Positions 1 through 32,687 of a stretch of 64,000 nucleotides of DNA are shown here, one piece after another. Each line of letters starts with the position of its first letter. The first letter of the stretch is position 1. The DNA comes from Thermodesulfobium sp. 4217-1 (GTDB taxonomy: Bacteria > Thermodesulfobiota > Thermodesulfobiia > Thermodesulfobiales > Thermodesulfobiaceae): NCBI RefSeq assembly GCF_039822205.1, contig NZ_JBAGBW010000002.1, positions 1 through 64,000 of the forward strand, given 5' to 3'. The notes under the pieces were generated by a model, which did not search any database, had not been told where the DNA came from, and worked only from the letters and a program-made list of their open reading frames with translations. The position numbers and the translations under genes are program-made.

Positions 1-224
1 GATAAAAAGATGTCAAATAGGAAAATGCTTAATATATTGGTTGATTTTATCTTAGCAAAAATATATAGCAAAATTGGGGGCACTCTAAACATCTGCAATA
101 TTTTATTTTATTGGCTTAATTTTGGTTATTTATGATCTCTATGAAGGTGAAATGCATTTATAAATTGTCTGACAATATTTAAAAGTTACTTATTTAAGCT
201 AATATTTTATTATGTCAGAAATGC
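1..224. other. upstream region of the Calvin-cycle operon
   Basis: AT-rich non-coding DNA with no convincing ORF. Its one clear element is the perfect palindrome ATTGTC-T-GACAAT at 164-176; the same half-site (TGTCAGA) recurs at 213-219 and again around the promoter. I see nothing else that can be named here. Confidence 0.6.
164..176. promoter_or_regulatory. upstream operator-like palindrome
   Basis: ATTGTC T GACAAT is a perfect 13-bp palindrome about 50 bp upstream of the -35 box. It fits the published FadR-subfamily GntR operator pattern NyGTM-N(0-1)-KACrN. The regulator itself is not in the window, so the family assignment is inference. Confidence 0.5.
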
Positions 225-251
225 TTGACAAGTCTGACAATTAATTATAAT
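225..251 (+). promoter_or_regulatory. promoter of the Calvin-cycle operon
   Basis: A perfect -35 TTGACA (225-230) is followed by TATAAT (246-251, 15-bp spacer) or TAATAT (248-253, 17-bp spacer). The promoter sits inside operator-like repeats, so its activity is probably controlled by a DNA-binding regulator. Confidence 0.65.
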
Positions 252-261
252 ATTGTCAGAC
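232..261. promoter_or_regulatory. operator-like inverted repeat over the -10 box
   Basis: GTCTGACAAT (232-241) and ATTGTCAGAC (252-261) form a perfect 10-bp inverted repeat that brackets the TATAAT box. The arms share the TTGTC/GACAA core with the 164-176 palindrome. A protein bound here would block RNA polymerase, so repression is the simplest reading. As RNA it would lie upstream of or at the transcription start, so an RNA role is less likely. Confidence 0.5.
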
Positions 262-284
262 ATACTTATAAAAGGAGGTTGACA

Positions 285-413
285 ATGACAGACGAGATTG
301 ATTTTGGCTTCTTTAATTTAGGGGCGTTTTTATTCTGTGGGTCTAATCTCAGGCTATATGACATTGTCGGCCTGGATTTCACTCCTAAAAAATTTTTGGA
401 GGTGAGAGTGTAA
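285..413 (+). CDS. 42-aa small protein ahead of transaldolase
   Basis: The ATG at 285 has a strong ribosome binding site (AAAGGAGG, 271-278). The ORF ends in TAATG, so its stop overlaps the transaldolase start by one base, which is typical of translational coupling. The peptide is rich in Phe and Leu, begins [10 protein letters not shown] and contains one Cys. It has no clear membrane helix or signal peptide, and I recognise no family. It is the first cistron of the Calvin operon, so it could be a small regulator or merely a coupling leader. Function unknown. Confidence 0.55.
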
Positions 414-1096: not shown

Positions 1097-2374
1097 ATGA
1101 ATATAAAATATACGAATTTTTTGGATTTAAGCTATACCCCTAAGAAAAGCGACGTATTGGCGGCCTTTTATGTGGAGCCTGCTGCGGGAACGGATATAAA
1201 AGAGGCGGCCGGAGCCGTGGCATCTGAGTCATCTATAGGCACCTGGACAGATCTTGCCACTATGAAACAGAGCATCTGGGACGAGCTAAGGGCAAGGGTA
1301 TATTCAATAGAGGGCAATGTAGCAAGGATAGCCTATCCAGAGGTTCTCTTCGAGGCTGGAAATATCCCGCAATTCTTGAGTAGCGTTGCAGGGAATGTAT
1401 TTGGAATGAGGGCGGTAGAGAATCTGAGGCTATTAGACATTGTTCTTACCCAAAAATTTTTAGATGACTTAAAGGGACCTGCCTTTGGAGTAGATGGCGT
1501 AAGAGGCGCATTAGGTGTAATGGATAGGCCATTAGTAGGCACAATTGTCAAGCCAAAGCTTGGCTTAGATCCCAGAGAACAGGCAAATGTAGTGTATGAA
1601 TCGCTCGTTGGAGGCCTGGATCTGGTAAAAGACGATGAGAACCTGACCCATCAAGACTTTTCTAACTTTGACGAGAGGGTAAGGTATTCTCTTGATGCGG
1701 TTAGGCGCGCTGAAGAGGAGACGGGCGAAAAGAAGGCGTATCTGCCAAACGTTACAGCTCCCACTGAGGAGATGCTTAGAAGGACGGCTCTTGTGAAGAA
1801 AGAGGGCGGAAAGTATGCGATGGTAGATGTGGTGACCACAGGTTTTGCAGGAGTGCAGAGTCTTAGGGATTCGAACTGTGGGTTGATATTGCACGCTCAC
1901 CGAGCTATGTTTGCAAGTTTTGCAAGAAATAAGAGACATGGAATTCATATGCTGGTTTTATCAAAGCTATTAAGGTTTGCGGGTATGGATCAGCTTCATA
2001 TTGGCACTGTAGTAGGTAAGATGGAAGGAGACAGAGACGACGTACTGGTGTGTCATGAAGCCCTTGGATCTAGTGAAGAGGTGAATGTAAGGACATATCT
2101 GCCACATCAAAATTGGGGTGATATGAAGAGCGTTTTCTCTGTGGCATCGGGAGGCCTTCACCCAGGACATACGGCAGATCTATTTAGGATATTTGGGAAG
2201 AATGCCGTGTTTCAGTATGGCGGCGGGGTTCACGGACACCCTGAGGGAACCAGAATGGGGGCAAGGGCTGTAAGAGATGCAATTGAATGCGTGGTAAAAG
2301 GCAGGTCTCTAAAGGAAGGTGCCAGAAGCAGCAAGGCTCTTGAGGTAGCACTGACAAAGTGGGGAGGTGCTTAA
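1097..2374 (+). CDS. rbcL: RuBisCO large subunit, form III
   Basis: 425 aa, shorter than form I and lacking a small-subunit gene nearby, as in form III (archaeal-type) enzymes. All catalytic positions are visible: K152 (KPK), the carbamylated lysine K178 with D180 and E181 (KDDEN), H268-R269 (HAHRAMF), loop-6 K308 (GKMEG) and the phosphate-binding S351-G352-G353 (SGGLHPG). It should therefore carboxylate ribulose bisphosphate. Phosphoribulokinase lies immediately downstream, so this form III enzyme serves CO2 fixation rather than AMP salvage. The ATG at 1097 follows TGAGGTG. Confidence 0.95.
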   Translation: MNIKYTNFLDLSYTPKKSDVLAAFYVEPAAGTDIKEAAGAVASESSIGTWTDLATMKQSIWDELRARVYSIEGNVARIAYPEVLFEAGNIPQFLSSVAGNVFGMRAVENLRLLDIVLTQKFLDDLKGPAFGVDGVRGALGVMDRPLVGTIVKPKLGLDPREQANVVYESLVGGLDLVKDDENLTHQDFSNFDERVRYSLDAVRRAEEETGEKKAYLPNVTAPTEEMLRRTALVKKEGGKYAMVDVVTTGFAGVQSLRDSNCGLILHAHRAMFASFARNKRHGIHMLVLSKLLRFAGMDQLHIGTVVGKMEGDRDDVLVCHEALGSSEEVNVRTYLPHQNWGDMKSVFSVASGGLHPGHTADLFRIFGKNAVFQYGGGVHGHPEGTRMGARAVRDAIECVVKGRSLKEGARSSKALEVALTKWGGA

Positions 2375-2375
2375 G

Positions 2376-3272
2376 GTGAGTGTGGATCCTGTCTTTATTG
2401 GGATAGCTGGAGATAGCGGCGCTGGAAAGAGCACCTTTGTGAGGGATATCGCTGCTCTTCTGGGAAGAGACAAGGTAAGAACCGTTTCTTTTGATGACTA
2501 TCACTCTCTGGATAGGGTCGAGAGAAAGGCTGTGGGGATTACTCCTCTTCATCCAAGGGCAAATAATCTGGGCCTTGCAATCGAGCATCTATTTTTACTA
2601 AAGCAGGGTAAAAAGGTCTTAAAGCCTGTATACGATCACTCTACTGGCAGTTTTGGCGACCCTGAATGGGTGGTTCCAATGCCTTACATAATATGCGAGG
2701 GTTTGCATCCATTTTTCTTCAAATCTCTGGCAGAGCTTTATGATATGAAGGTTTTCTATGACACCGACCTTGAGTTGAAATTTAACTGGAAGGTAAAAAG
2801 AGACACAGCAGAGAGGGGATATTCGGTAGAACAGGTTGCAAAGGAGATTAGACTCAGACAAAGAGATATCAGAAATTTTGTAGAGCCTCAGTGTGCGCTT
2901 GCAGATATAATAATCAAATTAAAGATTTCAAAAAATAGCTCTTCTGCAATTGGAGTTGACTGGAAAGAGCCAGTCGACGACCCATGGATAAAAAGATACC
3001 TGAAATCATGTAATTTTGATAATTGGCAGTGTTTCACTGAATGGTATGCGGGCAGAAAGATGAACGTTTTTGGGATATACAGCGACTTGATTCAGGATCA
3101 GCTAAAAGACATGGGATCTATATTCTCCATACGCCAGGACGTTTTATCCAAGGTTAAAGAGAAAGAGGTAGTGCCTTATAGGACTATGCTGGTCTTGTTC
3201 GCTGCCAGAATAAAACAGATCAGAGCATCTAAAGACAAAAATAGCGAGGTGGTGTTCCAAGATGCCGTTTAG
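2376..3272 (+). CDS. prk: phosphoribulokinase
   Basis: It phosphorylates ribulose 5-phosphate to the RuBisCO substrate. The Walker A motif GDSGAGKS lies near residues 12-19, followed by a DDYH motif and the EGLHP segment of class II (plant/cyanobacterial-like) enzymes. The P-loop has Ala where the redox-regulated plant enzyme has Cys16, so thioredoxin control of that type is not expected. A longer frame opens at GTG 2367, inside the RuBisCO gene, but the ribosome binding site GGGGAGG (2361-2367) fits GTG 2376 with 8-base spacing. Its 3' end overlaps the transketolase start at 3262. Confidence 0.92.
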
Positions 3273-4143
3273 CAGGATCGTGTATAAGCCAGAATACGAT
3301 GAGCTTGAGAAAAAAGCCTTGATTATCAGAAAGAATATAGTAAAGATGATAGCCAAAGCTCAATCTGGACATCCTGGAGGCTCACTTTCCTGCGTGGATA
3401 TCCTGACATCTCTATACTTCAGGATATTGAGAATCAGCCCAAAGCATCCCAAGGACCCCGAGAGGGATAGATTCATCCTATCAAAAGGCCATGCCGCCCC
3501 AGCCTTGTACGCCACCCTTGCCGAGACTGGATTTATCCCGTACGAATGGCTTGACGATCTTAGAAAGATTGGATCCCCCCTGCAAGGCCACCCTGATATG
3601 AAAAAGGTGCCAGGAGTCGAGATGTCGACAGGATCTTTGGGACAAGGCCTGAGCGTGGGCGTAGGGATGGCTCTTTCTGCAAAGATTCTGGAAAGCGGCT
3701 ATAGGGTATTTGTTCTTCTTGGAGACGGAGAGTGTCAGGAAGGGCAGGTGTGGGAGGCCGCTATGTCGGCCTCTCATTACAAACTTACAAACATTGTGGC
3801 TATTATCGATAGAAATGGTTTACAGATTGATGGCTGCACAGAGGACGTTATGGGGGTCTCACCCCTGGGGGCGAAGTGGAAGGCTTTTGGGTGGACTGTA
3901 ATAGAGGTGGACGGTCATGACTTTCTTGAGCTAATACCCGCTCTTGAGGCTATATCGTATACATCCAAGCCCACTGCGATAATTGCCAATACGGTAAAGG
4001 GTAAGGGTGTATGTTTTATGGAAAACAATGTGGATTGGCACGGAAAGGCTCCAAAGCCCGATCAATTAGAAGAGGCTCTGAAAGGTTTTGAAGGAGTTGA
4101 ATTTGTGGAATCTGATGAGGTTGAGGTAGATTCCAGCAATTAA
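3262..4143 (+). CDS. tkt: transketolase, N-terminal subunit
   Basis: 293 aa covering the thiamine-diphosphate-binding half of transketolase. Motifs include SGHPGG near residue 37, KGHAAPALY, and the ThDP motif beginning GDGECQEG with a downstream Asn (IDRNGLQ). The enzyme is split into two genes, as in many archaea and thermophilic bacteria, and needs the product of the next gene. Together they move two-carbon units in Calvin-cycle regeneration. The ATG lies 11 bp inside prk, suggesting coupled translation. Confidence 0.93.
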
Positions 4144-4173
4144 GAAGAAAATAAAGGAAAGGAGCTGTTCTGT

Positions 4174-5226
4174 GTGACCATTATATCTGATAGGGAGATT
4201 GCTACAAGAGAGGCATATGGAAGAGCGCTGGTAGAGCTTGGCAGGCAAAACAACAACGTAGTGGTTCTGGACGCTGATCTTGCCAAGTCTACTCAAACAA
4301 TAAGATTTGCAAAAGAATTTCCAGATAGATTTTTCGATGTTGGTATTGCAGAGGCAAATATGATAGGCGTGAGCGCTGGATTGGCGGCTTGCGGGATGGT
4401 GGTTTTTTGTTCATCTTTTGCAATATTTGCTACCCAAAGGGTGCTAAATCAAATCTTTCAATCGATAGCATATACGAATCTTAATGTAAAGATTGCTGCA
4501 AGCCATGCAGGGATTACGGTGGGCGAGGACGGAGCTACCCATCAGTCAATCGATGACATATCAATAATAAGGTCTGTTCCAAATATGACAATTATTGTCC
4601 CCGCTGATGCTCATGAAGCTTATGAGGCTACCTTTGCAGCCGCGAACTTCGAGGGTCCTGTATATCTAAGGCTTAGCAGGATGGCTACTCCAGTAGTCAC
4701 TCCTCCAGGCAAGCCCTTTGAGATTGGAAAGGCTATTACTCTTCGAGAGGGAAAAGATATTACCATAGCTGCTTGCGGAATAATGGTTTATGAGGCGCTT
4801 GGAGCTGCTGAGAAGCTTTCTGGCTTAGGCGTGGAAGCAGAGGTAATAAATTTTAATACCATTAAACCATTTGACAGAGAAACTCTTGTGGAGTCTTTGA
4901 TCAAAACAAGAGCTGCATTGAGCGTTGAAGAGCACAGCATAATAGGCGGACTGGGGAGTGCGGTCGCTGAGTGCATTTGTGAAGAATTTCCTGTAGCTAT
5001 GTCAAGGATGGGCATAAGGGATCAGTTCGGCCAGTCAGGCAAGCCTGCGGATCTTCTAAGGCAATACCAGCTTACATCAGAGGATATAGCAAAAGAAGCG
5101 CTGAGGCTTTTAGAGACGAGGAGAAAGGCAAACGAGATTTACGAGATATCAGCATCAACTAAGAGTGACTTTGGAGCCTTAGAATCAGAAGTTGATGGAG
5201 GGATGTCAGATGAGAATAGCAATTAA
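4174..5226 (+). CDS. tkt: transketolase, C-terminal subunit
   Basis: 350 aa with the pyrimidine-binding and C-terminal domains of transketolase. The catalytic Glu sits in the DVGIAEANM region, followed by the HAGITVGEDGATHQ substrate-binding segment. It pairs with the preceding subunit to form one functional enzyme. The start is GTG 4174 with GGAAAGGAG about nine bases upstream. The end reads past the start of gap by 17 bases, consistent with one transcript. The last 30 or so residues look like a loose, acidic tail. Confidence 0.93.
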   Translation: MTIISDREIATREAYGRALVELGRQNNNVVVLDADLAKSTQTIRFAKEFPDRFFDVGIAEANMIGVSAGLAACGMVVFCSSFAIFATQRVLNQIFQSIAYTNLNVKIAASHAGITVGEDGATHQSIDDISIIRSVPNMTIIVPADAHEAYEATFAAANFEGPVYLRLSRMATPVVTPPGKPFEIGKAITLREGKDITIAACGIMVYEALGAAEKLSGLGVEAEVINFNTIKPFDRETLVESLIKTRAALSVEEHSIIGGLGSAVAECICEEFPVAMSRMGIRDQFGQSGKPADLLRQYQLTSEDIAKEALRLLETRRKANEIYEISASTKSDFGALESEVDGGMSDENSN

Positions 5227-6226
5227 CGGTTTTGGAAGAATTGGACGTTTGGTTACCAGAATTGCAAGCGATGAGAGAGATATTGACGTAGTGGCGATAA
5301 ACAGTTCGAAAAATACCGCTATGTTGGCCAATTTATTAAAGCATGACTCTGTATATAGATCTTTTGACAAGGAAGTAGCTTATGATAGCGAGTCTCTGTA
5401 TATAAACAACAAGAGAATTCTCATTTTTGAAGAAAGAGCTGACATTACCAGACTCCCCTGGAAAGATCTGGGGATTGAGGCGGTAGTAGAGTCGACCGGT
5501 AAATTTACTAAAAGAGATGATGCGTACAAGCACGTTGTTGCAGGATGCAAAAAGGTACTTATTAGTGCTCCAAGCAAAGATGCAGAAGTTATGGTGGTAT
5601 ACGGGGTAAATCATAAAGATATATCCCCTTCTCACGAGGTCATTTCGGCAGCGTCTTGCACGACCAATTGCCTGGCGCCTGTTTGTAAAGTTTTAAACGA
5701 TGAGTTTGGAATTGAAAAGGGGACAATGACTACAGTTCACGCGTACACGTCCGATCAAAGGCTGTTGGACGGCACGCACAAAAAAGATCCAAGAAGGGCA
5801 AGGGCTGCTGCTATAAATATGATTCCCACTTCTACAGGAGCTGCAAGGGCTATTGGAAAGATATTTCCAGAGCTTGAAGGCCAGTTGGACGGCATATCCC
5901 TGAGAGTGCCTGTTCCGACGGCTTCCATAATAGATCTATCTGTGAATCTTAGAAATAGTCCTGAGATCTCAGACATAAAAGAAGCCTTCAAAAGTTATTC
6001 CGAAGGCTCAATGAGAGGCATTTTGCATTATTCAGAAGAGCCCTTGGTTTCAAGCGATATTATAGGCAGCAGATATTCTTCTATTGTAGACGGACAATTG
6101 ATATCAAAAATTCAAGATATTTACAAGATATTTTCCTGGTATGACAATGAATTTGGCTATGCCAGCAGAATTGTCGACCTGACAAAGTTTATATCGGGAG
6201 GGTGTGATCCATGTGACAGGGTTTGA
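5210..6226 (+). CDS. gap: glyceraldehyde-3-phosphate dehydrogenase
   Basis: 338 aa. The N-terminal NAD(P) fold starts RIAINGFGRIGR, and the catalytic Cys is C150 in SCTTNC. After the second strand the sequence is INSS (31-33) instead of the IND of glycolytic, NAD-specific enzymes. Loss of that Asp is typical of anabolic NADP-using GAPDH such as Bacillus GapB. I infer a reductive role in the Calvin cycle, preferring NADPH. The ATG at 5210 is chosen for GGAGGG six bases upstream; an earlier in-frame TTG at 5192 has no such site. It overlaps pgk. Confidence 0.93.
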   Translation: MRIAINGFGRIGRLVTRIASDERDIDVVAINSSKNTAMLANLLKHDSVYRSFDKEVAYDSESLYINNKRILIFEERADITRLPWKDLGIEAVVESTGKFTKRDDAYKHVVAGCKKVLISAPSKDAEVMVVYGVNHKDISPSHEVISAASCTTNCLAPVCKVLNDEFGIEKGTMTTVHAYTSDQRLLDGTHKKDPRRARAAAINMIPTSTGAARAIGKIFPELEGQLDGISLRVPVPTASIIDLSVNLRNSPEISDIKEAFKSYSEGSMRGILHYSEEPLVSSDIIGSRYSSIVDGQLISKIQDIYKIFSWYDNEFGYASRIVDLTKFISGGCDPCDRV

Positions 6227-7418
6227 CAGGGCATCTTTGCTTGATTATCCAATATACGGACTTCAGGGAAAAAGAGTTTTTGTGAGAGCAGATCTAAACG
6301 ATCCTGCCGACTCAGATGGTAACCTGACTGGAGATATGAGGCTGAGGGCAGTAGCACCCACACTGGCGTATCTATGCGCTGCAAAGGCGAAGGTGATTCT
6401 GGCCTCTCACTTTGGGAGACCAAAGAATAAAGAATCCAATTTTTCTTTAAAGGGAGTAAGAAAAAAGCTCTCTGGAATGCTGAACATTAATATAAACTTT
6501 ATTGCTGAGTGTGCGGGGGGAGAGTTAGAGAACTTTATTTCAAATGACTTAAAAGATGGCGAGATTTTGCTAATGGAAAACCTTCGATTTTGTCCGGGCG
6601 AGACGAAAAACGATATGCAATATGCGAGATATCTGGCATCGCTATCTGATATATTTGTCCAGGAGGCTTTTGGTGCATGTCATAGGGAGCACGCTTCTAT
6701 AGCATCTGTGCCAAAACTCTTGCCTTCTTTTGCAGGATTTTTACTTGAAAAGGAGGTTACTGCCTTGAGCAAGATTCTGAAAAGTCCAGAAAGACCATTC
6801 CTCCTGATTTTAGGGGGTAAAAAGGTTTCAGATAAGATAAGGCTTATCAATAATATGATCGAGAAGGTAGACGCTATTTGTATTGGCGGCGGAATGGCTT
6901 TTGCCTTTTTGAGAGCAAATGGATACGATGTGGGCAAATCCTTTGTAGAAGAATCGATTGATGACGTGGCGCGTCAAATACTTTATAAAGCTGGAGAGAT
7001 GGGAAAGAAGATAATTTTGCCAGTAGATGTAATGATGACAAGGGATATAATTAGCGGCAGCGATTGTAGGCTTGTCGATGCTTCAAGAATACCTGCAGAT
7101 TGGTATGGAGTGGACATTGGACCTAAAACTCTGGAAATTTTCAAAGAGGAGATATTGAAGGCAAAGACTATCTTGTGGAATGGCCCAATGGGAGTTTTTG
7201 AGATCCCTGAATTCTCGTGGGGTTCAAGGGCACTTGCTTTAGCGGTGGCGCTAAGCGATGCAACAAGCGTTTGTGGTGGCGGTGACACAGCAGACGTTTT
7301 GAGGTTAACGAATATGGTGAATTACTTTTCTCACGTCTCTACTGGTGGCGGAGCAGCCTTGAAATTTCTCGAAGGTGAAAAGCTGCCTGGAATTGACGCC
7401 CTTCCTAAAATAATGTAG
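6213..7418 (+). CDS. pgk: phosphoglycerate kinase
   Basis: About 401 aa, the usual length. The N-terminal substrate site (RADLND, SHFGRP) and C-terminal nucleotide motif (GGGDTADVL, STGGGAAL) are both present. In this operon it phosphorylates 3-phosphoglycerate made by RuBisCO. GTG 6213 gives about ten bases from GGGAGGG (6196-6202); GTG 6204 would be almost on top of that site. The start lies within the end of gap, so the two genes are coupled. Confidence 0.94.
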   Translation: MTGFDRASLLDYPIYGLQGKRVFVRADLNDPADSDGNLTGDMRLRAVAPTLAYLCAAKAKVILASHFGRPKNKESNFSLKGVRKKLSGMLNININFIAECAGGELENFISNDLKDGEILLMENLRFCPGETKNDMQYARYLASLSDIFVQEAFGACHREHASIASVPKLLPSFAGFLLEKEVTALSKILKSPERPFLLILGGKKVSDKIRLINNMIEKVDAICIGGGMAFAFLRANGYDVGKSFVEESIDDVARQILYKAGEMGKKIILPVDVMMTRDIISGSDCRLVDASRIPADWYGVDIGPKTLEIFKEEILKAKTILWNGPMGVFEIPEFSWGSRALALAVALSDATSVCGGGDTADVLRLTNMVNYFSHVSTGGGAALKFLEGEKLPGIDALPKIM

Positions 7419-7467
7419 GGTTTTAACTTGTAAAACATAAAAATAATGTTGGAAGAGGGTTAGAATT

Positions 7468-8439
7468 ATGAAAATAGAAAAGGGAATAGATCTGAGCAGA
7501 TTTATACTTGAGGAAGAGAAAAGATATTCTAAGGCATCAGGGGCTCTATCGCGCATACTTATCTCAATAGAGAATGCGACCAAGATAATATCATCTCATA
7601 TTAGAAAAGCTGGAATTGTGGACGTTCTGGGCAAAGTAGGCAGGATAAACGTTCAGGGTGAAGAGGTCCAAAAATTAGATGAGCTGGCAAACAACTGGCT
7701 GGTGGAACACCTTGCCTCTACTGGCGACTTCTTTGCTGTGGTATCAGAAGAGATGGAAAAGGCCTATTTCCCTGAGAATGGGAAGGATGGAAAATACGTT
7801 ATCAGTCTTGACCCTTTGGACGGGTCATCCAATGTGGACGTGAATATAAGCGTGGGCACGATATTTTCAATTTACAAGAGAATATCTGACGATGACACTT
7901 CATTTCTCCAGGAAGGCAGAAAACAGGTGGCTGCGGGCTACGTAATTTACGGCTCATCAACTATGATGGTATATTCCACAGGGAACGGCGTAAACGGTTT
8001 TACCTTAGATCCTGGTGTGGGCTCATATATTCTGTCTCATCCTGACATAAAGATACCTGTAAAAGGCAAGATATATGCCTTCAACGAGTCAAATTACAAA
8101 AGATGGTCAGACGGCTTAAGAAACTATGTGGACACTGTAAAAGAAAAAGGGTATGCGCAAAGATATGTGGCTACAATGGTAGCAGACGTTCACAGAACTC
8201 TTTTAAAGGGCGGAATATTCGCATATCCAGCGGATAGCACAAATAAAAATGGAAAAATAAGGCTGCTCTATGAAGCCAACCCATTGGGATTTTTGGTGGA
8301 GCAATCGGGCGGCATTGCCAGCAATGGCATCACCAGAATTTTAGATGTGAAGCCAGAGTATCTTCACCAAAGAACGCCTATCTTTATGGGCAGCAAGGCC
8401 GATATGGAAGAATTTCTGGAGATAACTAAAGAAGGGTAA
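7468..8439 (+). CDS. fbp: fructose-1,6-bisphosphatase, class I
   Basis: 323 aa with the class I metal/phosphate motif DPLDGSSN (115-122), SEEME near 93-97, and C-terminal YEANPLGFLVEQSGG. It removes phosphate from fructose 1,6-bisphosphate for ribulose bisphosphate regeneration and gluconeogenesis. No separate sedoheptulose bisphosphatase gene is seen in the cluster. Either this enzyme is bifunctional, or the transaldolase route makes that step unnecessary. The ATG follows GAAGAGGG. Confidence 0.92.
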   Translation: MKIEKGIDLSRFILEEEKRYSKASGALSRILISIENATKIISSHIRKAGIVDVLGKVGRINVQGEEVQKLDELANNWLVEHLASTGDFFAVVSEEMEKAYFPENGKDGKYVISLDPLDGSSNVDVNISVGTIFSIYKRISDDDTSFLQEGRKQVAAGYVIYGSSTMMVYSTGNGVNGFTLDPGVGSYILSHPDIKIPVKGKIYAFNESNYKRWSDGLRNYVDTVKEKGYAQRYVATMVADVHRTLLKGGIFAYPADSTNKNGKIRLLYEANPLGFLVEQSGGIASNGITRILDVKPEYLHQRTPIFMGSKADMEEFLEITKEG

Positions 8440-8516
8440 AAATAAAAAATTGATGTTCTTTATGAAGGGATTTTTGATATTATTTAAGTATATAAATTTT
8501 CTTTAAGGAGATTAAG

Positions 8517-8960
8517 ATGAAGATTTCAATTGCCACAGATCACGGAGCCTTTGATCTGAAGAATGAGATTAAAAGTTATTTTGAATCTATCGGACATGAG
8601 GTGATTGATTTTGGATGTTTTAGCGATGAGAGTGTGGATTATCCGCCAATCATAGCTAAGGCTGCAAGCGCGGTGTCTACCGGAAGGTGTGAGAGGGGGA
8701 TAGTATTGTGCGGTTCTGGAATCGGCGCATCAATTGTCGCAAATAAGATAAATGGCATTAGGTGTGCTCTGGTTTATGCGCCAGAGCTTGCAAGGCTCTC
8801 AAGAGAGCACAACAACGCAAATATGATAGCCCTTGGCGGCAGGTTTACCGATTTCGATGCTGCAAAAGAGCTTGTAGATATATTCTTAAATACCGAGTTT
8901 CAAGGCGGCAGACATCTTAGAAGAGTAGAGCAGATTATGGAATTGGAAAAATTTTTATAA
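8517..8960 (+). CDS. rpiB: ribose-5-phosphate isomerase B
   Basis: 147 aa, typical RpiB length. The N-terminus ATDHGAFDLK and the motif GCFS, the active-site Cys in VLCGSGIG, and the HNNANM segment are all present. It interconverts ribose 5-phosphate and ribulose 5-phosphate. A short 77-bp gap separates it from fbp, and a ribosome binding site (AAGGAG) precedes the ATG. Confidence 0.94.
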   Translation: MKISIATDHGAFDLKNEIKSYFESIGHEVIDFGCFSDESVDYPPIIAKAASAVSTGRCERGIVLCGSGIGASIVANKINGIRCALVYAPELARLSREHNNANMIALGGRFTDFDAAKELVDIFLNTEFQGGRHLRRVEQIMELEKFL

Positions 8961-8976
8961 ATTTTGGAGGCTATGT

Positions 8977-9603
8977 ATGTTAATATCTGGATCTATACTG
9001 TCAGCAGACTTTTTAAATTTTGAAGATAATATAAGAAAATTAGAGCCATACGCTGACGCTTGGCATGTGGACGTTATGGATGGTCACTATGTGCCCAATA
9101 TATCTTTTGGACCGCAGTTCGCTGCCTTTTTGGCTAAGTGCTCGAAGCTGCCCGCGTCTGTACACCTAATGGTAAAAGAGCCAGAAAAATTTGTAAGTCT
9201 AATCCCGAAAACAGTACAAGAGGTCACATTTCACCAAGAGGCCACCGTTTCTCCGGTAAGATTTTGTACAATGCTCAAGGAGATGGGCTTCTTGCCCGGG
9301 GTTAGCATTGGACCTGGAGTGCACGAGAGTTCCATACTGGAAATATTGCCGTTTGTACACCACGTTCTCTTTATGAGCGTGGAGCCTGGATTCGGGGGGC
9401 AGACCTTTATAGAACCAGTATTCGAAAAGATAAGGAGGCTAATTGGACTGTACCCGAATAGAAGTTTTGAGATTTGGGTTGATGGTGGGGTGGATATGTT
9501 CTGGGGAGAGAAGCTAAAGGAAATTGGTGTAGATTTGGCTGTGATGGGCAGTGCATTTTTCAAGGCAAAAGACCCCAACGAGTTCAGAAGGCTTAGGACA
9601 TAG
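8977..9603 (+). CDS. rpe: ribulose-phosphate 3-epimerase
   Basis: 208 aa TIM-barrel enzyme. The catalytic Asp sits in HVDVMDGHYVPN, with HLMV and SVEPGFGGQ further on, and the second catalytic Asp is in WVDGGV. It converts xylulose 5-phosphate, made by transketolase, into ribulose 5-phosphate for phosphoribulokinase. The ATG follows TTGGAGG and lies 16 bp after rpiB. Confidence 0.94.
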   Translation: MLISGSILSADFLNFEDNIRKLEPYADAWHVDVMDGHYVPNISFGPQFAAFLAKCSKLPASVHLMVKEPEKFVSLIPKTVQEVTFHQEATVSPVRFCTMLKEMGFLPGVSIGPGVHESSILEILPFVHHVLFMSVEPGFGGQTFIEPVFEKIRRLIGLYPNRSFEIWVDGGVDMFWGEKLKEIGVDLAVMGSAFFKAKDPNEFRRLRT

Positions 9604-13327: not shown

Positions 13328-13917
13328 GGAAAAAGGGTGGCTTTACTCTTACCGAGCTCTTGGTGGTTATAGTAATAGCATCGATGATAGCTATTGCTGT
13401 AATATATGCTCTTTCAAGCGGCGGCAAATCCTTTGTTAAAAATCAGGAGATAGACAACATATCTATTAGCGTTCCAAATATTCTTTATGGTATGTCAAGG
13501 GAGATTAGAGAAGCTGGATATATAAATCTTCAGATAAGCCCTGGCACTACCGTAAATGCAAATGTGGTCTGCGCTCAGGGCAGCTCTGGCTACATATCGT
13601 TTAATCTGGATGTGCCCAATTCAGGAAATCCCGATGGGACTGGCGCATATAGTGTAGTGAAATATCAATTGCAAAATGGAAACCTGTCAAGGTGTGTGAA
13701 TAGCACAAGCTGTTCAGTTATCAACCCTCCAAATGTGGTCTTTACGGTATTCTCTCCTGTATTGGGTTCGGTAAATTCAAGCGCTAATTTTGTCCCAAAT
13801 CAGGTGGACTCCTCTGGAAACTATAACGTGGTCCAGATTGTTATAACTGCGAATTTAAAATCGAGCAATAATTCTTATACTTTTACAAAGGAAGTGAAGC
13901 TCAGAAATGTTCAGTAA
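13324..13917 (+). CDS. type IV minor prepilin, PilW-like
   Basis: 197 aa. KKGG before FTLTELLVV is a classical prepilin peptidase site with Glu5. The following helix and the segment SREIREAGY match PilW-type minor pilins. The C-terminal domain is beta-rich and predicted to be extracellular. It overlaps both neighbours, so translation of PilV-PilW-PilX-like genes is coupled. Confidence 0.8.
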   Translation: MRKKGGFTLTELLVVIVIASMIAIAVIYALSSGGKSFVKNQEIDNISISVPNILYGMSREIREAGYINLQISPGTTVNANVVCAQGSSGYISFNLDVPNSGNPDGTGAYSVVKYQLQNGNLSRCVNSTSCSVINPPNVVFTVFSPVLGSVNSSANFVPNQVDSSGNYNVVQIVITANLKSSNNSYTFTKEVKLRNVQ

Positions 13918-13919
13918 AA
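13894..13919 (+). repeat. 26-bp exact repeat, copy 1
   Basis: The 26 bases running from the end of the PilW-like gene into the start of the next gene recur exactly at 15630-15655. In this copy the first half is coding for PilW; in the other it is a non-coding leader. Confidence 0.85.
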
Positions 13920-15433
13920 GATTTTCTGACAAGAACGGGTTCGCTTTGCCGATTGCTATTGGAGCGATGGTTTTTTTCATAATAGTAATCGGAGTATGGG
14001 CAGCTCTGAACCTTTCTTTGTTCAAGACCTCTTCAGCACAGACCTCTTCTATTCGCGCTTTGTCTGCCTGCGAAGAGGGGATATCTTATGCTATAAATCA
14101 ATTGGATTCCAATCCGGCTTACACGGGAGGTTCTTATACTTCAAAGGAAGGACTTAGCGTAGCTATAGTCGTTGCAGCGACATCTCCCAAGACTGTTACT
14201 GCTACTGTAAGTAGTCCTGTGCACAGAAGCGTCAGAGTGCTGGTTCAGGGTTCTGGCAGCGTGATTCCTGGTCCGGTAATTTCTAATGGTGACATAAGAA
14301 TTAACGGCAAGCAAAATCTGTTGGATGCTGGCAACTCTGGCATTCCTGGAGCTCTGTATACTGGCTCGATTACAAATCATGCTGGCGCAACTATAAACGG
14401 ACCAGCACAACAGATAACAAGCTTTAGTCCATATAGCACTGCGGTAACCAGTGTGGTTTCGAACATTGTAAAATCTAATCAAATACCCAGCACGCCAACC
14501 CTTCCAACTGGATATACCACACTAACCAATCCAACGTGTGGAGGCAGTTATACAGGAAATTATATCGTTAATAATCTAAGTTGCTCTATAAATGTTACCG
14601 GGAATCTCATTTTAAATGGAAACATTAATATAAATAACTCCTCTACTATTTCCGTATCCGGAGGAAACCTATGGATTCCTGCAACAAATATAAACACTAA
14701 TGCACCAACAACTATTTCGGTTAGCAATGGGAATCTTATCACAAGCAGCCAGATAAACCTTAATGGCTCAATATCGGTAAACAACGGTAGCTACTGGTCA
14801 AATAATTCTATAACCCTTAATACCAGCGGGTCCTCTGTTAATGTTAGCAGCGGAAACCTGTATTTAACTCAAGGCAGTTTGATACCAAATCAAAGCTCTG
14901 ATCCAATTAATGTTTCGGGAAACATAATTTTAGCGACGGGAAACATTACTTTAAATAGCGCATCCAATATAAGCGGCAATATTTTACTTTATGGCAATGG
15001 AGCGACTTTTTTGGTGGATAGTTCTTCTACTGTTACTGGCAATATTTATCTCTTAGATGGTGATTTGACGCTTAATGGTCAAAGCACTTTAAATGTGGCC
15101 TTTCTTTATGTAGGTTCTGGTACTGTGAATAGCAATGGGTCAGTTAATGCAAACGGTGATAACAACAACGGGAATCTTATCTTAGATGGTGGAAATACAA
15201 TAAATGGCTTTGTGTATACTGATGGACAATTTACTTCTAATGGTCATGATACGATAAACGGTGCACTTTGGGCAAATAATTATAACAACAGCAATGATCA
15301 GATTACGTTGGATGGAAATGACAGTATTATCTACAATCAAAACAATCTTATTTCTGCAGATAATCTATTGTCCCAATATATTACGACCAATGCAACTATA
15401 GTTAGCGGTTCATGGCATGAAATATACAATTAA
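13907..15433 (+). CDS. PilX-like pilin with Asn-rich repeat domain
   Basis: 508 aa. The N-terminus has a prepilin-like site (KNG before FALPIAIGAM) but no Glu5, as in PilX/GspK-type tip proteins. After a helix with SACEEGISYA, the body is made of short Asn/Ser/Gly-rich repeats (LNGNINI, VSGGNL, INSxS types) that suggest a beta-solenoid. A conserved NPTCG segment lies in the middle, and the protein ends with a GSWHE motif. Extracellular and part of the pilus or an attached adhesin, by inference. A paralogue follows at 15643. Confidence 0.7.
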   Translation: MFSKRFSDKNGFALPIAIGAMVFFIIVIGVWAALNLSLFKTSSAQTSSIRALSACEEGISYAINQLDSNPAYTGGSYTSKEGLSVAIVVAATSPKTVTATVSSPVHRSVRVLVQGSGSVIPGPVISNGDIRINGKQNLLDAGNSGIPGALYTGSITNHAGATINGPAQQITSFSPYSTAVTSVVSNIVKSNQIPSTPTLPTGYTTLTNPTCGGSYTGNYIVNNLSCSINVTGNLILNGNININNSSTISVSGGNLWIPATNINTNAPTTISVSNGNLITSSQINLNGSISVNNGSYWSNNSITLNTSGSSVNVSSGNLYLTQGSLIPNQSSDPINVSGNIILATGNITLNSASNISGNILLYGNGATFLVDSSSTVTGNIYLLDGDLTLNGQSTLNVAFLYVGSGTVNSNGSVNANGDNNNGNLILDGGNTINGFVYTDGQFTSNGHDTINGALWANNYNNSNDQITLDGNDSIIYNQNNLISADNLLSQYITTNATIVSGSWHEIYN

Positions 15434-15642: not shown

Positions 15643-15655
15643 ATGTTCAGTAAAA
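15589..15655 (+). repeat. chimeric duplication junction (copy 2 of both repeats)
   Basis: 15589-15628 matches the region upstream of the PilV-like gene, and 15630-15655 matches exactly the junction at 13894-13919. The roughly 940 bp that lie between them in the first copy, meaning the PilV-like and PilW-like genes, are absent here. Confidence 0.75.
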
Positions 15656-17007
15656 AACTTTCTGACAAGAGCGGATTCGCTTTGCCGATTGCTATCGGGG
15701 CTATGGTTTTTTTCGTAATAGTAATTGGAGTATGGGCAGCTTTGAATATATCTTTATTTAAAACCTCTTCTGCTCAAACGGGTTCTGTTCAGGCCCTGTC
15801 TGCGTGTGAAGAAGGAGTAGCTTATGCAACGGCCCAAAACCTGCCTTATGGCAGCTCGCAGTATACTTCGCGAGAAGGGCTGAGCGTAAATATAAGCGTG
15901 ATAAATCCAGCTACTGCTTCAGGATATATTACGAAAATTATAACCGCTTCTGTAGGCGCACCACAAAAGAGATCTGTAACAGTTTATCTGGGAAACGCAA
16001 TTCCGGGGGCAGTTATAGCAAATGGGGATATAAATATGAACAGTAACTCAACTATTACTACAAACAATCCGAATATACCAGGCGCACTGCTCAGCGGGAC
16101 TTTATCGAAAGATTCAAACTCATCTGTTATAGGACCCCAACAGCATCTTCCTGACTTTACGCCTTACAAAAACGCTATTCATCAAGTAGTCAGCAGTATG
16201 ACACCGAGCATTCCTGCTGCGCCCACAAACTATACTACACTTTCAAATCCTACTTGCGGTCAAACGTTGACTGGAAATTATATCTTGACGGATGGCAGCC
16301 TTAACAACAATAATTGCAACATTACAATAAACGGTGACCTTGTCATAAGCTCTTCGAATTTTTCAGTCAATAACGGCAGTTCTCTTACAGTGAATGGGAA
16401 CATGTGGTCAAATGCGGTGAACTTAAATTCAAACGCTGACTTAATAGTTAGCAAGAGTTTGTATGCAAACGGCAGCGTAACAGATAGCGCGAATTCACAG
16501 ATTAGCATAGGTGGCAATATTATTTTGACAGGCAGCAATTCAAATCTCATCTTAAATAGCAATTCTGATGCGATTTCAGGAAACATCATCACAACGGGAA
16601 ACAATACCTCTGTAACTTTTAACAGTAATTCTACCATTAATGGCAATATTATAATTTCTGACGGTAACCTGAATATCAATTCTAATGTGAATGGCTTGAG
16701 CGGACTGGTTTACGTCGGGAATAGCGCTGGCTCTTCTTCTTTAGGAAATCTGACTATCAGTAGTAACAACACTATAAATGGTCTTGTATATGCCTCAGGC
16801 TCTGCCCAAATAGGAGAAACAACTGTGCAGATGAATTCTAATTCAAATATAAACGGTGCCTTGCTGGTAGAGAGCGGAAACTTGCAAGTAAATGCCGGCA
16901 GTGAAATAGTGTATAATCCTGCTACTTTCAGCAATATAACCAATCTTTTGTCAAATTATTTAAGCTCACCTATTATTACTGGTTCATGGCATGAACCTTT
17001 GGTTTAA
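15643..17007 (+). CDS. PilX-like pilin with Asn-rich repeat domain, paralogue
   Basis: 454 aa. Nearly the same N-terminus as the 13907 gene (FALPIAIGAM, no Glu5), the same ALSACEEG helix, the same NPTCG segment and the same final GSWHE motif. The repeat region (NSNS, INGNI, GNLNI patterns) has diverged much more than the ends. It likely arose by duplication and then drifted in its solenoid, as expected for surface-exposed repeats. Confidence 0.7.
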   Translation: MFSKKLSDKSGFALPIAIGAMVFFVIVIGVWAALNISLFKTSSAQTGSVQALSACEEGVAYATAQNLPYGSSQYTSREGLSVNISVINPATASGYITKIITASVGAPQKRSVTVYLGNAIPGAVIANGDINMNSNSTITTNNPNIPGALLSGTLSKDSNSSVIGPQQHLPDFTPYKNAIHQVVSSMTPSIPAAPTNYTTLSNPTCGQTLTGNYILTDGSLNNNNCNITINGDLVISSSNFSVNNGSSLTVNGNMWSNAVNLNSNADLIVSKSLYANGSVTDSANSQISIGGNIILTGSNSNLILNSNSDAISGNIITTGNNTSVTFNSNSTINGNIIISDGNLNINSNVNGLSGLVYVGNSAGSSSLGNLTISSNNTINGLVYASGSAQIGETTVQMNSNSNINGALLVESGNLQVNAGSEIVYNPATFSNITNLLSNYLSSPIITGSWHEPLV

Positions 17008-31505: not shown

Positions 31506-32687
31506 GTGATACTACATAGAACAGTTAAAGTCAAATTGAATATGTTGTCCGAAGAAATCAAACCTACGTTTGAAGCATATACCAGTGCTTACAACTATGT
31601 TTGTCAAATCGGATACCAAGACAGAGACTTTAACAGTGTTTCTTTGCATTATAAAACTTATGAGGCTATGAGGAAGCATTTGCCTGCTCAACTTGTTTGT
31701 TCTGCCAGAGCAAAATCTGCAGAAACGCTTAACTCTATTAAAAAACGATTGAAGAAAAAGCAGAAAACGAATTGTCCTCAAAGTAAACTTTGTTCTATTA
31801 GATACGATGCCCGAAGTTATAATGTGTGGTTTGATAGAAACGAACTCTCTTTGCTCACTGTTAATGGTAGAAAAAAACTTCAAATTTCTATTCCTGATTA
31901 TTTTAAACAATATATTGGTTGGAAGAGAACCTCTGCTGATTTGATGTTGAGGAAAAACAAAGTGTTTTTGTATATTGTTTTTGAAAAAGAAATTGATGAT
32001 TTTGAACCAAATAATATAGTTGTTGGGATTGATAGAGGCATTAACAAACTTGCTGTTACTTCTAACAACCAATTCTTTAGTGGTAAGCATGTCAAAGCAA
32101 TTTCTCATCGTTATTTTGAGATTAGAAGAAAGCTTCAATCTTGTGGCACACCATCGGCGAAAAGACACCTTTGCAGAATATCTGAAAAGGAGAACCGTTT
32201 CAGAACCGATGTTAATCATATAGTCAGCAAACAAATCGTCCAATCCCTTGAACCAGGAACTACTATTGTGCTTGAAGATCTGAAATTGATTAGACAGAAT
32301 GTTCGATTGAGAAAGAAACAACGTAGAGATGTGCATAATTGGAGCTTCTATCAACTTGAACAATTTATTATTTATAAGGCTGCGGCTAAAGGGATCAAAG
32401 TTGATTATGTTGATAGCCATTATACTTCTCAAAAATGCTCCGTCTGTGGTTACACTTCTTGTTCTAATCGCTCCTCTCAAGCTAATTTTAAATGTCAAGA
32501 ATGTGGATTCTCTTTGAATGCTGATTTAAATGCTGCCAGAAACATAAAGCAGAATTATCTGCAACCTAATCTGGATGCTATATGCAAACAGATCGGGCTG
32601 ACCGTCAACCAGCCTATAGTAGCCTTGCAGGAACCGCAACACGAACATTTACAGGTGCCTGTAGGAGCTACAAGCCCCCGACTTTAG
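31506..32687 (+). mobile_element. tnpB: TnpB of an IS200/IS605-family element
   Basis: 393 aa RNA-guided nuclease of the TnpB family. The three RuvC acidic residues are visible (GIDRGINKLAV, VLEDLK, NADLNAARN), and so is the zinc finger CSVCGY...CQECG. The protein appears intact and should be active. No TnpA transposase gene is next to it, so this is a TnpB-only element. The coding end overlaps the right-end hairpin, where the guide RNA scaffold of such elements is encoded. The antisense 328-aa frame is a shadow. Confidence 0.88.

Follow-up and report, generated by a model that had tools for sequence, protein, structure and literature searches.

A conserved operator cluster at the Calvin operon promoter of Thermodesulfobium sp. 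4217-1 and its probable GntR-family regulator

The Calvin operon of Thermodesulfobium sp. 4217-1 is preceded by a short promoter region in which TTGTC/GACAA palindromes are repeated, and the question raised by this locus is which regulator they serve. Calvin operons are usually described as being under the control of the LysR-type protein CbbR (e.g., PMC2942843). The window, i.e., the whole 64-kb stretch of DNA analyzed here, starts at one end of contig C2 in a genome of 2.0 Mb, and the operon is read from its forward strand. The first enzyme gene (413–1066) encodes a transaldolase/fructose-6-phosphate aldolase family enzyme (PF00923 and TIGR00875 over cut-off) and is followed by the genes of a form III RubisCO large subunit (1097–2374; TIGR03326 over cut-off) and a phosphoribulokinase (2367–3272; PF00485). 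The rest of the apparent operon (3262–9603) was named from translations only, as transketolase halves, GAPDH, PGK, FBPase, RpiB, and Rpe. Thermodesulfobium acidiphilum, whose Calvin cycle is a transaldolase variant (Frolov et al., 2019; as described in PMC12999727), likewise has the genes for form III RubisCO, phosphoribulokinase, and a transaldolase-family enzyme together; no paper on the regulation of that variant cycle was found in the open-licence literature searched.

Inspection of the region upstream of these genes pointed to a likely sigma-70-type promoter that is kept in all four genomes of the genus compared, composed of a TTGACA −35 box (225–230, present in 4/4 genomes), a 17-bp spacer, and a −10 box TAATAT (248–253), the latter identified by consensus match only and reading TATTAT in the three relatives. 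A Shine–Dalgarno sequence, AGGAGG (273–278), follows on the same strand. The 13-mer ATTGTCTGACAAT at 164–176 is a perfect palindrome, as the first-pass annotation had claimed, and its core, TTGTCTGACAA (165–175), is referred to as O1. The perfect 10-bp inverted repeat also described there was borne out by the sequence, with GTCTGACAAT (232–241) and ATTGTCAGAC (252–261) flanking the −10 region, but it is best read as two putative 11-bp operators. The first of these, O2 (AAGTCTGACAA, 230–240), matches the motif at 8/10 positions and lies within the −35/−10 spacer, its first base being the final base of the −35 box. The second, O3 (TTGTCAGACAT, 253–263), matches at 9/10 positions and lies on the −10 end and the expected start point, its first base being the final base of the −10 box. 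No strand is assigned to these palindromic elements. Across the four genomes, O2 and O3 are always 23 bp apart, and O1 and O2 are 65 or 66 bp apart.

Two further elements had been proposed in the earlier annotation. The half-site at 213–219 falls inside ATGTCAGAAAT (212–222), and 11 of the 12 columns of 211–222 are kept in the four-genome alignment; as an imperfect operator or half-site it is weak, matching at only 7/10 positions, and matches of this quality are common in the window. The fourth element, at 279–293, was rejected. Only 10 of its 15 columns are kept, G003 has GGCAA in place of GACAA, and the overlapping ribosome-binding site and ATG start codon explain the sequence.

Palindromes of this kind could arise by chance in AT-rich DNA, and single matches behave accordingly: near-matches in the window were at chance level (three versus 1.88 expected), and exact 11-mers were no more common genome-wide than those of a reversed control (four versus four). 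A lone near-match is therefore uninformative, and the signal is carried by the clustering, the 13-mer, and the conservation. O1, O2, and O3 reach a summed score of 27/30 within 100 bp and are the sole such triple in the 64-kb window; an equal cluster was obtained in none of 400 dinucleotide shuffles of the window and in none of 5000 shuffles of region 101–300.

Conservation was examined in the only four close genomes available for comparison, all of the genus, namely the source genome (G000) and G001, G002, and G003, which amount in effect to three lineages since G002 is near G000 (RubisCO 97% identical). The operator columns were invariant throughout (33/33 in 4/4 genomes; 11/11 for each of O2 and O3, and 13/13 when the full 13-mer at O1 is considered), compared with 10/63 columns just upstream of O1. 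In the stretch between O1 and the 212–222 element (177–210), 22/34 columns were invariant. The excess over the other columns of 164–284 (69/88 invariant) corresponded to p = 0.0013, and that over the other columns of 101–284 (79/151 invariant) to p = 8.5e-9. Given the shuffles, the invariant columns, and the recurrence of the motif at three promoters in four genomes described below, a chance origin was rejected and is regarded as practically negligible.

It was then considered whether a CbbR-like LysR protein encoded elsewhere regulates the operon, with the palindromes being either its sites or incidental. The usual role of CbbR and the presence of three LysR genes over cut-off in the genome speak for this explanation, as does a TTA-N7-TAA match at 190–202 in G000 and G002. 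This match was absent in G001 and placed elsewhere in G003, and approximately 0.17 such matches are expected per 125 bp; the scan used the TTA-N7/8-TAA pattern, stricter than TNA-N7/8-TNA. CbbR sites are described as T-N11-A/TNA-N7-TNA, and in the case studied the cbbR gene is divergent from its target (PMC2942843). The target operon is of the same kind here, but neither the site form nor the divergent gene is conserved: the motif is an 11-bp palindrome with a 1-bp spacing, in agreement with the earlier statement that it does not resemble the CbbR site. No LysR-like ORF was seen beside the Calvin operon in the upstream stretch read in G001, G002, or G003, and on the window side the stretch comprises only the 412 bases before the first enzyme gene. 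Additionally, the LysR protein CrgA is reported not to have bound a 46-bp fragment in which this 13-mer is present (PMC6422896). Control by a LysR protein is thus judged quite unlikely. As a separate observation, the LysR gene at G000:C11:39427 lies between ribose-phosphate pyrophosphokinase-like and DNA polymerase III-like ORFs and, by eye, is the nearest of the three to the CysL/CbbR kind.

The motif fits instead the sites of the GntR family. The operator consensus of the FadR subfamily is described as a palindrome of GT and AC boxes 3 nt apart, TKGT/ACMA (PMC4494728), to which TTGTCnGACAA conforms, with O1 matching perfectly, O3 with one mismatch, and O2 with two. A direct precedent is AlkR of Pseudomonas aeruginosa SJTD-1, a member of the VanR group of the FCD subfamily in the GntR superfamily (PDB 9ISW; PMC12042122). 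Its DNase I footprint is reported as ATTGTCAGACAAT, which as double-stranded DNA is the same 13-mer as that of O1, and lies over −10 regions, from where AlkR represses (PMC12042122). LhgR, the GntR regulator of L-2-hydroxyglutarate catabolism in Pseudomonas putida W619, is likewise reported to protect TTGTCTGACAA, identical to O1, as well as TAGTCTGACAA (PMC8206213). These reports support the earlier assignment of the core to FadR/FCD-type GntR sites.

The source genome was found to encode one full GntR protein, a product of 222 amino acids located outside the window (G000:C17:23727–24392), with a winged-helix domain (PF00392, 55.5 bits) and an FCD domain (PF07729, 92.4 bits) both over cut-off. 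Each of the four genomes has exactly one full GntR, 88–99% identical to the G000 protein, and a scan of the contigs with the GntR alignment returned one locus, 99% identical. A second GntR match, below threshold and with partial coverage of the profile, was present in three of the four genomes, and its G000 copy resembled a Crp/Fnr-type protein by eye. The close alignment between AlkR and the GntR of this genome is confined to the DNA-binding half, where, in an ungapped alignment, residues R45, R49, and G68 of AlkR correspond to R48, R52, and G71; mutation of these AlkR residues is reported to weaken binding. When the residue–base correlations described in PMC4494728 were mapped by us onto the protein, two of three fitted: Pro 40 and the absence of Gly 59 agree with the site, and Arg 28 favors an outer G/C where the site has T/A. 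The AlphaFold model (mean pLDDT 67.6, pTM 0.52) was considered of insufficient quality to search for similar folds.

The first-pass annotation had further expected the regulator's own promoter to carry the motif, which was not borne out: the motif was found by eye in none of the four gntR promoters, and the same result was obtained by score in G000. The gene also adjoins none of its supposed targets. A site in the regulator's own promoter is common, but not universal, in FCD/FadR-type GntR regulons. LhgR, in contrast to the protein considered here, is described as a local catabolic regulator that adjoins its target and binds its own promoter (PMC8206213). Among distant gntR relatives, a best upstream score of at least 9/10 was obtained in 1/19 regions compared with 0–2/19 for control patterns, so that the motif shows no clear excess there, with 19 of 26 loci scored and seven dropped because the recognition helix was not found by the pattern used.

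Palindromes alone do not fix a regulator family, and this, along with a gntR gene that is neither adjacent nor provided with an autoregulation site, would suit real operators bound by a protein of another family, such as MarR, TetR, or a Crp/Fnr-type regulator. The exact 13-mer is nevertheless the footprint of an FCD/GntR protein elsewhere (PMC12042122), its form follows the FadR-subfamily consensus, and the contact residues are conserved, which makes another family unlikely. We therefore consider it probable, from the sequence comparisons, that the one full GntR encoded in the genus has O1–O3 as its operators; this GntR/FCD protein would be a repressor through which the assimilation of CO2 and that of acetate are coordinated.

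The wider targets of this candidate regulator were sought by scanning the four genomes. Each genome contains exactly two copies of the perfect 13-mer, at the same two promoters: that of the Calvin operon and the region between a homocitrate-synthase-like gene (TIGR02660, 527 bits, cut-off 463) and a divergent SufC-like gene (SufC model, 187 bits, under the cut-off of 213). Sites with at most one mismatch numbered 42 in the four genomes compared with 10 for the reversed control. Fourteen such sites occur in G000; four lie outside ORFs, all within three promoters; of the other 10, nine lie inside ORFs and one spans an ORF end. The third promoter lies in front of an acetate–CoA ligase gene (767 bits, cut-off 725), after which comes an acetate uptake transporter gene (152 bits, cut-off 50). 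Here a TTGACA box with a 17-bp spacer is preceded by the site, whose start is 14 bp upstream of the box, and G000 has a weaker site 57 bp farther upstream. An 18-bp tandem spacing common to the Calvin and acetate promoters was considered and dropped, the second acetate palindrome scoring below 7/10. Exact matches to ATTGTCWGAYAAT fall in the same three promoters in 4/4 genomes and at one extra place in G000, with none for the reversed control, but this pattern was tuned after the sites had been seen and its matches are thus a description rather than a test. A random scatter of the motif without a regulator, as envisaged in the first-pass annotation, was not what the scan returned; the promoters recur and a GntR is present.

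Several sites fall outside this set of three promoters. The extra ATTGTCWGAYAAT match (G000:C38:2636), seen in G000 only, crosses an ORF end approximately 35 bp before another ORF. In two of the four genomes (G001:C1:618788 and G003:C1:575107), a hydrogenase/NuoD-like ORF has a one-mismatch site, ATTTTCAGACAAT, approximately 210 bp upstream of it; the site was not seen in G000 or G002, and the ORF is a possible further target. In one genome (G002:C97:1431), a phosphate-binding-protein-like ORF likewise has a one-mismatch site, 87 bp upstream of it.

The identity of the homocitrate-synthase-like enzyme bears on the meaning of this gene set. Re-citrate synthase is described as often being misannotated as homocitrate-synthase-like (PMC12016533). 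Searches of the genome returned no match to Si-citrate synthase (PF00285) and none to a nitrogenase-type protein (PF00148), and the enzyme is therefore probably a Re-citrate synthase.

In the mechanism that we favor, a GntR dimer would occupy each TTGTCnGACAA palindrome. With O2 within the −35/−10 spacer and O3 covering the end of the −10 box and the start point, protein bound at these two sites should block RNA polymerase from the promoter, and O1, 65 bp upstream of O2, may strengthen the complex through cooperative binding or looping. The same GntR would control the acetate–CoA ligase/acetate transporter operon and the homocitrate-synthase-like (probably Re-citrate synthase) gene. With one GntR over three promoters, carbon entry from CO2 and from acetate would be coordinated by a single metabolite signal, a role that acetyl-CoA, citrate, or a related acid might fill, and it is a metabolite of acetyl-CoA or citrate metabolism that would release the protein from DNA.

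The direction of control could differ among targets, with GntR activating one or more of them, for example turning the Calvin operon off and the acetate operon on. Dual FadR-type regulators are known, and the position of O1, ahead of the −35 box, could accommodate an activator. The overlap of O2 and O3 with the core promoter, the usual position of a repressor, and the repression exerted by AlkR from such a site (PMC12042122) argue against it. Activation at some promoters is accordingly held to be somewhat unlikely, yet a real alternative to the repression that we infer.

The operator and the regulator belong to a known kind. What would be new, as far as the open-licence literature searched shows, is the placement of a Calvin operon under a regulator of this type and its coupling with acetate assimilation and citrate synthesis. 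In the description of AlkR, a single footprinted site lies at the gene of an alkane monooxygenase, and AlkR is released by long-chain acyl-CoA (PMC12042122), unlike the present system with three candidate sites on the Calvin operon and other candidate targets. We give even weight to the broader proposal that, in this genus, a single FCD-type GntR master regulator rather than CbbR governs the Calvin cycle, with a three-promoter regulon for CO2 fixation, acetate uptake and activation, and citrate entry that senses a small carboxylic acid or CoA thioester. If true, this would be a single carbon-source switch in a deep-branching autotroph. A GntR-controlled Calvin operon would show that a cycle with an archaeal-type RubisCO has been wired into a different regulator family, and so small a regulon predicts a metabolite that decides between building from CO2 and building from acetate.

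The promoter is separated from the first enzyme gene by a leader ORF of 42 codons on the forward strand (285–413), whose stop overlaps the transaldolase start. It is open in all four genomes (42–47 codons) and its Shine–Dalgarno sequence is strong and conserved. Amino-acid-changing versus synonymous codon changes in the leader ORF numbered 9 versus 4 in the closest pair of genomes and 13–17 versus 3–8 in the other five pairs, in contrast to 10 versus 25 and 6–16 versus 78–89, respectively, in the transaldolase gene. Protein-level constraint was thus not seen and a conserved peptide was rejected; as the frame is nonetheless open in 4/4 genomes, translation itself may be of greater importance than the peptide. 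No RNA element was matched in the leader with Rfam up to an E value of 1 in positions 1–1200.

Other features of the window were also noted. Two ORFs (13907–15433 and 15643–17007) have near-identical starts (MFSK.SDK.GFALPIAIGAMVFF) followed by Asn/Ser-rich repeats; they look like paralogues and adjoin pilin-like genes. Another ORF (31506–32687) has a four-cysteine motif and, judged by translation only, resembles a TnpB/OrfB-type transposon protein.
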